A stretch of DNA of 21,838 bases, taken from positions 1 through 21,838 of IMG/VR virus record IMGVR_UViG_3300035670_001360; one strand, given 5' to 3'. This document shows positions 1,966 through 11,242 of the stretch, in pieces. Within the stretch, counting starts at the first letter, position 1. Each line of letters begins with the position of its first letter. Below the pieces are notes generated by a model. It did no database searches. It worked only from the letters and a program-made list of their open reading frames with translations, and was not told where the DNA came from. The position numbers and the translations under genes are program-made. This DNA is from a virus.

Positions 1966-2484
1966 ATGGCTGATAAACGTATCGATCTCGATATTGAGTC
2001 CATAGTCAACGAGTACAAAGCTGGTTCCTCTATGAGGAAACTCGGCTTAAAGTACGGAGTAAGCTGGCAGACAATAAGAAACCGTTTGCGAGAGCAAAAA
2101 GTTTCGATTCGCCCCAGAGGAAATACTGGCATAAATAAAAGAAGCGGATCACGCAGTCACAAATGGTCTGGTGGTGTGACTACTGACAGTCAGGGATACG
2201 TTTGGATTCACACAGACTTAGTAGAAGAAGAGTTTCGCTGCATGGCTCAGAAAGGAGCCAAAACTATTGATGGTCATAAATCATACGTTGCAGCTCACCG
2301 TTTAGAGATGGCAAGAATTCTTGGCCGCCCACTAGAGAAAAATGAAACAGTTCACCACATAAACGGCATTAAATCAGATAATTTAATTGATAATCTACAA
2401 TTAAGAAAAAGCAATCATGGCGCTGGACAGTCATATTGTTGTCAGGATTGTGGATCTAAAAATATAGTTTCGGTGGTGATCTAA
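1966..2484 (+). CDS. HNH homing-type endonuclease with N-terminal HTH
   Basis: The 172-residue product has a resolvase-like helix-turn-helix at about residues 12-45 (SMRKLGLKYGVSWQTIRNRL), then an HNH_3 nuclease core. The core shows H111 in the AHRLEMARILGRPL helix and the HHINGIKSDN motif at 130-139, ending DNLQL. A C-terminal CCxDCGS (158-164) looks like half of a zinc knuckle. Such proteins cut DNA to spread themselves. It sits between two unrelated hypothetical genes and the helicase, in AT-richer sequence than its neighbours, as expected of a recent insertion. Its last codons carry the SD of the helicase, and both genes share a reading frame separated only by TAA. The call is firm for HNH; homing activity is inferred. 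Confidence 0.88.
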   Translation: MADKRIDLDIESIVNEYKAGSSMRKLGLKYGVSWQTIRNRLREQKVSIRPRGNTGINKRSGSRSHKWSGGVTTDSQGYVWIHTDLVEEEFRCMAQKGAKTIDGHKSYVAAHRLEMARILGRPLEKNETVHHINGIKSDNLIDNLQLRKSNHGAGQSYCCQDCGSKNIVSVVI

Positions 2485-2487
2485 ATT
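2472..2487 (+). promoter_or_regulatory. Near-perfect Shine-Dalgarno pointing to an AUU start
   Basis: GGTGGTGATC (2472-2481) matches the 16S-complementary GGAGGTGATC at 9 of 10 bases. Its core is 8 nt before ATT 2485, ideal spacing, and the TAA of the HNH gene fills the gap. No ATG, GTG or TTG lies in frame until 2596, which would remove the conserved start of the helicase. Confidence 0.65.
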
Positions 2488-3747
2488 AACGTCGAACAAG
2501 CTCTCCTGAATAAAGTTATAACTACTGGCCAGCTTGAAGAGGCAGTTTCACGGGGAATAAGAGCAGATCTCTTCGCAGATGAAGAGTGCCGTGACATGTT
2601 TGAATACATCACGGATCATGCTCGTCGATATAAAACTCCACCTTCAACTAGCGCTGTAGAAACTGACCGGCCCAGCTGGAAGGTAGACCATAATCAGGAA
2701 TCTCTTGATTACCTGATTGACAAGTTCACAGTTCTTTGTAAGCGCCGCCTGTCGCAGGAGGCTCTAATCGAGCTTGCGAAGCTGACAGAAGATCCGCAAG
2801 AAGGACCAAATCTCGATCTGCACTTTCTCGAGGTGAGCCGTCGTCTAGCCACCCTCGTTCCCTCAACTCAAGTAGCAAGGTTCTCCGATATGGAGCAGCG
2901 TGTCGCTGAGTACGAAGAAAGAGCGGCTGAGGGTAAGAAAATTGGTATTCCATTTGGATATCCCACGCTTGATGATTGGACTGGTGGTGTGCAATCGCAC
3001 GAGCTGGTGACGATTGCTGGCTTCTCTGGTCTTGGTAAGTCAACGATGCTTATGTCACTGGCTTTCAATGCTTGGTCTCAGGGCTATACGCCCCTCTACA
3101 TTTCTCTTGAGATGGAGGCGGGGGCCATCTTGCGTAAGTTCGACGCTATGGCGGCCTCCCTTGATTACGCAAAAATCAAGCAACTCCAACTTCCCGAACG
3201 GCAGATCGAGGAGTGGAGAAAGACCGCCGACGAGATCGCTGGCAAGGCCCACGACATTCCTGTGATTGACAGCATTCGTGGGTGTACGCCGGATCATGTC
3301 TTCGCAGAGACTGTCAGACACAAGCCGGATCTTGTCCTGATTGACTACCTGAGCTTATTGCGGTCTTCCCGACCTCAGCGGAACTCTTCAATGTGGCAGT
3401 CCCTCACGGAGATCACTCAGGATCTGAAGCAGAACGCCAGAACTCTTGGCATTCCGATCATTGCTGCCGCTCAGACAAACCGTTCTGGTGGCAAGGAAGG
3501 TGCCGATCTCGACAACATCGGCTACTCGCTTTCCGTCGTTCAGGATTCTGACATCATGATTGGTCTTTTTGCTGATGATGAGATGAAAGACAGAAAAGAA
3601 ATGGAAATTCGTCTGAATAAAAATCGAGATGGACGACTCGGAAAATTTATGGCAAAATGGGATCACGAAAGCATGGAGTTCCGCCAGCTTACGATCAAAG
3701 ATAAATTCGGAAAGCCCGGTATTGAAAGTGCGGCTGACACAGCTTAG
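2485..3747 (+). CDS. dnaB: DnaB-type replicative DNA helicase (apparent AUU start)
   Basis: This is the ATP-driven hexameric helicase that unwinds the phage fork and recruits primase. Read from ATT 2485 it is 420 residues. The N-terminal DnaB domain begins NVEQALLNKVITTG and continues through ADEECRDMFEYI. A RecA-fold ATPase domain (about 155-400) follows, with Walker A GFSGLGKST near 179-187 and Walker B DLVLIDY near 282-288. The first ATG (2596) would delete 37 residues that align with the expected N-terminus of the family. ATT is therefore preferred, backed by the SD at 2472-2481. One base change (ATG to ATT) would explain it; a sequencing error is possible. The gene overlaps the next one by 20 nt. 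Confidence 0.93.
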   Translation: MNVEQALLNKVITTGQLEEAVSRGIRADLFADEECRDMFEYITDHARRYKTPPSTSAVETDRPSWKVDHNQESLDYLIDKFTVLCKRRLSQEALIELAKLTEDPQEGPNLDLHFLEVSRRLATLVPSTQVARFSDMEQRVAEYEERAAEGKKIGIPFGYPTLDDWTGGVQSHELVTIAGFSGLGKSTMLMSLAFNAWSQGYTPLYISLEMEAGAILRKFDAMAASLDYAKIKQLQLPERQIEEWRKTADEIAGKAHDIPVIDSIRGCTPDHVFAETVRHKPDLVLIDYLSLLRSSRPQRNSSMWQSLTEITQDLKQNARTLGIPIIAAAQTNRSGGKEGADLDNIGYSLSVVQDSDIMIGLFADDEMKDRKEMEIRLNKNRDGRLGKFMAKWDHESMEFRQLTIKDKFGKPGIESAADTA

Positions 3748-4039
3748 GAAAATCTCAGAGTTTCATATTTGCCAGTGGGAGGGCGACCTCGACGACGGCA
3801 AATATGTTTATGTGCGAATCAGAAATGACCGGCTGGCAATTGGCTACGCGCACGAGCGTTGGATCGCCATGAACCATTCTGTGAACTCTCCTTACAGCGA
3901 AAAGTTCATAGAAAGAGCCGACCTAGAAGGACCATTTCATACAGCCCAATTGCTGCCACACCTAAAACAATCAGGAATCGACTGCTCACAAATCAACCCA
4001 GAAGAAGTGGAAAAAAGTTACTTAGATGCCCGGTTTTGA
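3728..4039 (+). CDS. Hypothetical protein between helicase and primase (103 aa)
   Basis: I recognise no family. The 103-residue product looks like a small alpha/beta protein: a beta-rich first half (FHICQWEG, KYVYVRIRNDRLAIGY) and a charged helical C-terminus. GTG 3728 is chosen as the start most compatible with a short overlap with dnaB. The frame is open back to 3629, but that would double-code a conserved helicase end. Its position between helicase and primase, with overlaps at both ends (20 nt and 14 nt), suggests a replication accessory role such as helicase loading or primase contact. That is inference from context only. Confidence 0.6.
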   Translation: MRLTQLRKISEFHICQWEGDLDDGKYVYVRIRNDRLAIGYAHERWIAMNHSVNSPYSEKFIERADLEGPFHTAQLLPHLKQSGIDCSQINPEEVEKSYLDARF

Positions 4040-10000: not shown

Positions 10001-10239
10001 GGAAGACCACAAAGCGTGGAAGCCCGTTCGCAACTGTCATTCTTGCCTATGGACTTAACGAATGGAGAATTAGATTTTGGAAAGAGTCGCTAGAAATGTA
10101 TGGCGATTTGCTTTCTGAAGGTCAAGCGATTATGGTTGCTGGGCCGACTGATTCTTGGAATGGGACCGTTAGCGTGGTTTGCCAACACGCAGCATCAGTT
10201 GAACAATTTGCGAAAGAAATGGAATCTAATGCCAGTTAA
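7042..10239 (+). CDS. dnaE: DNA polymerase III alpha subunit (DnaE, C-family replicase)
   Basis: This is the replicative polymerase, 1065 residues against about 1160 for E. coli DnaE. An N-terminal PHP domain begins HLHRHSEYSRLDG (residues 5-17) and keeps QTDHGTL, GVEAYF and a later NDAHFP, so its metal site looks intact, unlike in E. coli. In the palm, GRGSAAG begins near 382 and the catalytic PDIDLDF supplies D424 and D426, with D579 in LKIDALG. HYGFNKSHSASYA lies in the fingers. A helix-hairpin-helix stretch (GVGEVGARTI) and a C-terminal OB-fold (about 975-1050) follow. A TTG start at 7042 is required by the PHP motif; no SD is visible. It overlaps recA by 11 nt. No separate proofreading subunit is seen here. 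Confidence 0.96.
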   Translation: MSFVHLHRHSEYSRLDGLGSATHYAQRAADLDQFALAQTDHGTLSGALEHIEACRIAGVLPISGVEAYFRPDRSSKDTRQAWHLCLYAKNLRGWHNLLRIVSVAYGEIEDGGGFYQYPCVDYELLRKYSEGLACSSACVSGWLSNLIEGGDSVAVREYIDTMTSIFGEDFWLEIMPHDFEQQKILNKELVGISQERGIGIIATNDAHFPYQEWAETHKIAKMCGASTSFSKLEKDKEKGKAGYLSELNPTLYLCTEEEMIEWFSANHPDITRHTIRESLDNTELFVQRTTPFLLDKSPKLPKVAENEQSPAEILREWIDEGMERILAEYPDSHWERWPKELYYERIESEFEILDSKGVIDYFVLVGDVVRWARKEGIRVGLGRGSAAGCLISYLVGIVAIDPISWGLLFERFLNPERKGLPDIDLDFQSERRSEVKAYIARKYGADHVADIITHSRFQPKSAIQDLCRVYDVPYDEAHAVTDTIEIRQDDEDTTLEEILPNNEKLQEFKRRHQDIWEHALRIEGSVKNAGKHAAGIIITPKPVVEYMALERGKQGDLVTSWSDAADFPVVSDYGFLKIDALGISGLDRHAYACDLIKRRHGKEIDLYSLGPLRNPYDVDMDVMSGFANGYTIGIFQFGSRGITNLLKDINPDVAFDLAAANALYRPGPMKGGVTWDYAKRKRGGDFDTWHEAIKPILSETYGLVTYQEQVMEISKQIGGFSGAEADDLRKAMGKLYRIKGGSTAKTFMKRFEEKWFEGCVDRDIDKTTANEIWRKILEFGHYGFNKSHSASYALQAYQDMYLKIKYPLEFYAAILTYPSGSKPKEKQDFVAQVIREARLRGIKILPPCVNRSEVGWSVDDEGIRVGLLAIKGVGEVGARTIIENRENGLYDSMQNFRDRIAPRAINNSALIALQEAGAFDFCDGRSDASQNQISIWERDRLGMNLTVAADIQKYASLIEQNIHTQEEVAENEDGTVVVGGEIVRIDRKTTKRGSPFATVILAYGLNEWRIRFWKESLEMYGDLLSEGQAIMVAGPTDSWNGTVSVVCQHAASVEQFAKEMESNAS

Positions 10240-11242
10240 TCCAGCAGATTACGATGAAATTGTCTCTAAAATTAATCGTAAGTACGAAAACTCAATAAGA
10301 ATTGGCAACCAGTTTGAAAGCGCGCAAAGAATCTCCACCGGCAGTTTGGAACTCGACGTTGCTATGGGCGGTGGTTTGCCTATTGGCCGGTGGTCTCGTT
10401 TCTACGGCGGCTACTCATCTACTAAGACGCTTACCACTCTCAGCGTCATTAGAGAAGCGCAGAAGGAAGGACTCACATGCGCTTACTACAACATCGAGAA
10501 GCAGTACGACCCGAAGTTCACAGCAGAAAAGATCGGGGTCGATATTGACAAGCTTATGGTCGTCGAGGGAACCACAATTGAGGAAATCACGGACAAAATG
10601 GAGGCGCTTTTCGGAGTCGTCCACCTTCATGTCATCGACTCCTGTACGGCTGCGGTATCAGAAGACGAGCTAAACGCTGACGTTCGCGACTGGCGACCGG
10701 GAATCACGGCTCGTGCTTGGGGTAAGTCTTTCCGCAGGCTCAACGAGCGTTTCGATGCCAGCGAGAACACCGTGATCATGGTCGATCAGGTCAGAACTAA
10801 CTTCCGCACAGGCGCAGAAGAAGCTCCGGGCGGTCGCATTCTCGATCATCAGTCTTCTATGACTGTTCACTTTAAGAAGGGTGGCTGGCTCAATCGCAAC
10901 GGAGAGGGCTATCTAGACGAGAAAGCAACTCAGTCAAAGGGAATGAGCGGACAGGCTGAGCCTGACGGAATTGAAATCAAGGCTCGCGTTCAAAAATCTC
11001 GCGTTTGCCGGCCTTTCCGTACTGCCACGATGCGACTCGACCTTGACAGCATCGAGTTTGATCGTGTATTTGAATTGTCTAAGGCTGCGCGTTATTACGG
11101 TCTTGTAGATCAGAAAGGCGCCTACTACTATTACGGCGATCAGAAGTTCCAAGGGGAGAAGAAGCTTCGTGAGTTCATCATGGGCGATCTAACCTTTCAG
11201 GAAGAAATCAGAGAAAAAGCACTCGAGGCATCAAAGAGGTAG
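10229..11242 (+). CDS. recA: RecA-like recombinase with altered Walker A
   Basis: It forms filaments on ssDNA and promotes strand exchange in phage recombination and repair. The 337-residue product matches the RecA core. Walker A is at 60-67 as GGYSSTKT, where cellular RecA has GPESSGKT, so the glycine before the Lys is Thr65. The catalytic-Glu region is YYNIEKQYDP (E90), Walker B is LHVIDSCTA (133-141), and a QVRTNF segment (187-192) sits where loop L2 begins. ATG 10229 is preferred over the open frame from 10100, because earlier codons only double-code DnaE. It is coupled to dnaE by an 11-nt overlap. Non-glycine residues also occur here in phage UvsX, so activity is likely. Confidence 0.9.
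   Translation: MPVNPADYDEIVSKINRKYENSIRIGNQFESAQRISTGSLELDVAMGGGLPIGRWSRFYGGYSSTKTLTTLSVIREAQKEGLTCAYYNIEKQYDPKFTAEKIGVDIDKLMVVEGTTIEEITDKMEALFGVVHLHVIDSCTAAVSEDELNADVRDWRPGITARAWGKSFRRLNERFDASENTVIMVDQVRTNFRTGAEEAPGGRILDHQSSMTVHFKKGGWLNRNGEGYLDEKATQSKGMSGQAEPDGIEIKARVQKSRVCRPFRTATMRLDLDSIEFDRVFELSKAARYYGLVDQKGAYYYYGDQKFQGEKKLREFIMGDLTFQEEIREKALEASKR

Follow-up and report, generated by a model that had tools for sequence, protein, structure and literature searches.

A very probable AUU start codon for a phage DnaB-like helicase, abutting the stop codon of an inserted HNH gene

Where does translation of the replicative helicase begin in a phage genome in which the reading frame opens with ATT? 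As a start codon, AUU is very rare. Only a few bacterial genes are known to begin with AUU, AUC, or AUA (AUH). We analyzed a 21.8-kb contig from an uncultured virus (the window; 21,838 nucleotides), in which a helicase frame directly follows the stop codon of an HNH endonuclease gene. The features that bear on this question are listed below.

1559-1930, + strand: conserved small gene with a putative start, 39% identical to L002 positions 1607-1951.
1937-1963, + strand: 12-bp hairpin just 5' of the HNH start, with the AGGG of the HNH gene inside the stem.
1966-2484, + strand: HNH endonuclease gene with a helix-turn-helix (Pfam HNH_3, 2.3e-9; HTH_58, 3.5e-6).
2472-2481, + strand: extended Shine-Dalgarno sequence GGUGGUGAUC, within the final HNH codons.
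2482-2484, + strand: HNH stop codon TAA, abutting the AUU and in the frame of the helicase.
2485-2487, + strand: very probable AUU start codon of the helicase; the homologous codon in relatives, aligned without gaps, is ATC, ATA, GTG, or ATG.
2485-3747, + strand: DnaB-like replicative helicase, 420 amino acids (PHROG 19, Pfam DnaB_C, Foldseek).
2488-2595, + strand: codons 2 to 37, N-terminal helices 5' of the first canonical start (pS/pN, predicted structure).
2596-2598, + strand: Met38, the first in-frame ATG, GTG, or TTG (from the sequence).

The initial annotation, which proposed that the helicase starts at AUU, placed GGTGGTGATC at 2472-2481, TAA at 2482-2484, and ATT at 2485-2487, all of which are exact, as is its statement that no ATG, GTG, or TTG occurs in frame for 37 codons: the first is the ATG at 2596, codon 38. 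Read from ATT 2485, the peptide begins INVEQALLNKVITTG. Because the TAA at 2482-2484 shares the helicase frame, any in-frame start further upstream is blocked. A standard gene finder would call the start at Met38, deleting helices 1 and 2 of the N-terminal domain.

The identity of the protein is clear. It matches PHROG 19 from residue 1 (E value, 8.7e-79) and Pfam DnaB_C (2.2e-35), and the best Foldseek matches of its predicted structure are DnaB; a RecA-fold C-terminal domain with a Walker A motif is preceded by a helical N-terminal domain, as in other DnaB-like proteins. The conserved DnaB N terminus claimed for it holds in that this region is kept among relatives, but the Pfam DnaB N-terminal model by itself scored below threshold (E value, 0.087). 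The surrounding genes encode a primase, a single-stranded DNA-binding protein, a nucleotide kinase, a DNA polymerase, a UvsX/RecA-like protein, and a Cas4-like nuclease.

Several side observations concern this neighborhood. The small gene 3' of the helicase (3722-4039) probably starts at TTG 3722 (MKVRLTQLRKISEF; compare L002 position 3198, MKIISLTKISEF) rather than at ATG 3629, and the UvsX/RecA-like gene (10229-11242) probably starts at ATG 10229, overlapping the end of the polymerase gene, rather than at ATG 10100; homology in relatives begins at or near 10229. The DNA polymerase gene opens with TTG 7042, where Shine-Dalgarno pairing is about nil (+0.1 kcal/mol), making it another weakly started replication gene. 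The phage also carries two tRNA genes (208-280 and 536-608; Thr [TGT] and Lys [TTT]), and L002 contains a segment that matches the tRNA-Lys region. Rfam snoRNA-like matches at 3567-3657 fell far under threshold.

We found six relatives of the helicase beyond the window in a viral contig collection, counting as one the contigs L002 and L003, which have 2 differences in 6,192 bases; a search of a genome contig collection returned no relatives. Protein identity to the window helicase is 82% for L002/L003, 63% for L020, 57% for L010, 55% for L021, 51% for L018, and 50% for L013. In the alignment of relatives that had been proposed as a check, the first residue occupies one gap-free column in all seven members, and its codon is ATT in the window, ATC in L002/L003, ATA in L013, GTG in L020, and ATG in L010, L018, and L021. 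This is the sole column of the first 120 in which six gap-free members show only AUN or NUG codons. The window, L002, L003, and L013 have no ATG, GTG, or TTG between the upstream in-frame stop and a Met at codon 34 to 38, so that in each an AUH codon stands at the conserved N terminus with no canonical in-frame start.

The non-canonical start is kept in only part of the clade (ATC and ATA; the four others have GTG or ATG). Independent AUH lineages are few (two clades, of which one consists of a single contig), and the tree allows the AUH codons to have arisen once or twice. Among more distant phage helicases with the upstream stop in view, the first start is ATG, GTG, or TTG in 69 of 69, a set (among L023 to L098) that includes many near copies and does not amount to 69 independent cases. 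That first start is GTG in 36 of the 69, so this gene may often have a weak start. Comparison of the window frames with the relatives, among the frames listed, revealed no other real gene with homology 5' of its first canonical start, once we set aside frames whose 5' part lies within the preceding gene, where the homology belongs to the overlapped gene. On these comparisons, the AUH start is specific to the helicase and not a feature of these genomes in general.

What distinguishes the non-AUG members is the strength of the sequence upstream. The ribosome-binding site, described at the outset as near perfect, deserves that name: it matches 9 of the 10 bases of GGAGGUGAUC and is predicted to pair with the 16S tail at −15.4 kcal/mol, a value from which that in the host may differ. 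Only 0.1% of the positions sampled in the window match that pairing, and the site is the strongest of 29 scored, all tested gene starts included. Pairing is −8.7, −10.5, and −12.5 kcal/mol ahead of the AUC, AUA, and GUG of the relatives, and −6.4, −3.5, and −1.7 kcal/mol in the three AUG members; hence, every one of the four non-AUG sites pairs more strongly than any of the three AUG sites, an outcome of 1 of 35 permutations with seven genes. This ranking is robust to the length of anti-Shine-Dalgarno used, with a much smaller margin for the shortest. The window, AUC, and AUA members therefore all have the strong or extended Shine-Dalgarno sequence seen at known AUH-start genes.

These observations leave a serious rival to any benefit for helicase dosage or via IF3: the start may be genuine and its codon a product of tolerated drift with no regulatory role, a strong Shine-Dalgarno sequence and translational coupling having made the third base nearly neutral. 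We regard this as possible rather than probable. The interchange of AUU, AUC, AUA, GUG, and AUG at one position is what little selection on the third base would produce, and the frequency of GTG among the distant helicases points the same way. However, AUH occurs only in the helicase and not in the other orthologous window genes, and neutrality seems unlikely for a replication gene given the output of such codons in Staphylococcus aureus, where cvfC1 (AUU) and ccpN (AUA), which have extended Shine-Dalgarno motifs, reach in poor medium about 10% of the output given by AUG (PMC13009471).

A sequencing or assembly error, with ATG as the true codon, is far less credible. The window phage is known from one contig, and relatives at 51 to 57% identity do have ATG. 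The initial annotation had itself cautioned that a single misread base would give the same picture, a caveat now excluded in practice: the homologous codon is ATC in the two nearest contigs and ATA in a third lineage, three separate third-base errors in one codon would be needed, and it is the non-AUG members that have the stronger Shine-Dalgarno sequences.

Initiation at Met38, with the upstream codons untranslated, is more improbable still. Met38 is the first canonical in-frame start, and the other AUH members also have an ATG nearby. Between the window and L002, however, synonymous sites in codons 2 to 37 have reached saturation while the protein is conserved (pS, 1.01; pN, 0.12); the values for codons 38 to 413 are pS, 0.82, and pN, 0.12, and stops interrupt both other frames across codons 2 to 37. 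Selection at the protein level is as strong there as in the remainder of the gene, which is evolutionary evidence that codons 2 to 37 are translated and speaks against initiation at Met38. The same stretch is the best predicted of the N-terminal domain: mean pLDDT is 67 for the whole model and 81 to 90 for residues 1 to 50, with helices predicted at residues 3 to 14, 17 to 22, and 33 to 49. Moreover, the AUG members start at column 1, and pairing ahead of Met38 (2596) does not exceed −4.7 kcal/mol in strength. Codon 1 and the Walker A motif are 178 residues apart in the window helicase; in the distant phage helicases in which the motif could be located, 179 to 184 residues separate it from the canonical start. 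We also rejected the CTG at codon 8, which is too distant from the Shine-Dalgarno sequence and at which the AUG members do not start. Together, the non-canonical homologous codons and the protein constraint on codons 2 to 37 bear out the proposed start, and AUU 2485 is very probably genuine.

A fused product, made by ribosomes that shift frame out of the upstream gene or read through the HNH stop, is barely conceivable: relative to the upstream gene, the helicase is in the −1 frame in L002, L010, and L013, and it shares the HNH frame in the window, but the relation is not conserved (+1 in L020 and L021; in frame, but after a stop, in the window and L018), which led us to discard programmed frameshifting or readthrough, and inspection by eye revealed no conserved slippery site.

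Stop and start usually lie close together. The upstream stop and the helicase start overlap by 2 nucleotides in L013 (ATAG) and are separated by 0 nucleotides in the window, 1 in L021, 2 in L002 and L010, 4 in L020, and 24 in L018; the start thus falls within a few bases of the stop in six of seven members (2-nucleotide overlap to 4-nucleotide gap), and the spacing in L018 indicates that coupling is not universal. This geometry fits termination-reinitiation, for which the effects of IF2, IF3, and the Shine-Dalgarno sequence have been measured in Escherichia coli (PMC2268962). Of the earlier suggestion that output is limited by reinitiation after the HNH stop, the juxtaposition stands; the HNH gene is dispensable to it, as relatives that lack this gene also have non-canonical starts.

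Indeed, the HNH gene is missing from this place in every relative, which indicates a later insertion. In relatives lacking it, the small gene found at 1559-1930 in the window is the direct 5' neighbor of the helicase, and the insertion altered the last residues of that gene (EYRTSEPN in the window, EYRKGVV in L002). Comparison across the clade thus portrays the HNH gene as having been inserted secondarily, without causing the AUU start. The idea that its insertion destroyed an original ATG fails because L002/L003 have no HNH gene and nonetheless have ATC. We also dropped the notion that a C-terminal Shine-Dalgarno sequence (GTG GTG ATC TAA) is a hallmark of the HNH family: HNH relatives in named phages end otherwise (...CGSHNVKSTTL and ...CGSHNVKNVKLD). 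A search of the viral contigs for HNH relatives found none. GTGGTG occurs in L002 at almost the same distance from its AUC; plausibly, the last codons of the inserted gene run into, and hence preserved, the ancestral initiation region.

Hairpins are known to hide the ribosome-binding sites of phage homing endonucleases, and the one at 1937-1963 resembles these. The region from 1928 to 1975 folds at −17.6 kcal/mol (z score, −5.9) with a perfect 12-bp stem, and this predicted structure probably lowers HNH translation; if so, de novo initiation at 2472-2485 may outweigh coupling in the window phage. Finally, ATGAATATCGAACAA at 1902-1930 is similar to ATTAACGTCGAACAA, with which the helicase opens. 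We rejected the reading that a mobile intron interrupts the helicase and that ATG 1902 begins its 5' exon (MNIEQ, similar to INVEQ), because Rfam yielded no intron match; we consider the likeness a coincidence, since the stretch at 1902-1930 forms the upstream gene's conserved end, read in a different frame, and is also present in L002.

We propose that fMet-initiator tRNA would start the helicase at AUU 2485, the weak codon-anticodon match being offset by the extended Shine-Dalgarno sequence and by ribosomes terminating on the abutting upstream gene, some of which may reinitiate at the helicase start. Across this phage clade the position of the start has stayed the same while its codon drifted among AUG, GUG, AUU, AUC, and AUA; the HNH gene was a later arrival, its end now providing both stop and Shine-Dalgarno sequence. 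Initiation at AUU would presumably be slower than at AUG, probably capping helicase output, which may fall under strong IF3 discrimination. That the role of the AUU start is to limit helicase dosage is a tentative reading, somewhat less likely than not. It seems unlikely that the clade purposely retains a poor AUN start for its helicase, leaving IF3-dependent start-codon proofreading in the host to set both the amount of helicase and the onset of phage DNA replication.

The AUU helicase start represents an unusual place for an ordinary class of mechanism. Like the helicase gene, infC is essential and has an AUH start (AUU in E. coli, AUC in Streptomyces) that its relatives share (PMC5472188), but it encodes IF3 and regulates itself, whereas the phage helicase has no known tie to IF3. 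The S. aureus genes cvfC1 (AUU), ccpN, and citZ (both AUA) share with it an AUH start to which an extended Shine-Dalgarno sequence directs the ribosome (PMC13009471); they reside on the bacterial chromosome, and ribosome profiling mapped their starts, while the helicase is a phage gene abutting a stop, with a variable codon, known from sequence. E. coli pcnB also has an AUU start, described as limiting translation (Binns and Masters 2002, as cited in PMC13009471 and PMC9410913), but is a cellular gene and not a phage replication gene. In Streptomyces sigR, a GTC start missed by annotation sets dosage, and its repression by IF3 was shown experimentally (PMC5472188), a case that differs from the helicase in its codon, which is not AUN. 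Among phages, the M13 gene V-gene VII junction provides a gene started by termination-reinitiation (PMC2268962), for which the evidence is experimental, in contrast to the stop-start geometry by which we know the helicase junction. The literature searched, a partial coverage, yielded no phage gene with an AUU, AUC, or AUA start. The helicase is thus a phage-borne addition to the known genes with AUH or other non-canonical starts (infC, pcnB, ccpN, and sigR).

At least two lineages thus begin an essential phage gene with AUU, AUC, or AUA, the position of the start being fixed and its codon variable. Gene finders limited to ATG, GTG, and TTG would shorten these helicases by 33 to 37 residues, and comparable cases in other phages therefore probably go unnoticed. 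Together, the seven homologous sites offer a natural series for examining how Shine-Dalgarno strength and coupling buy start-codon freedom.
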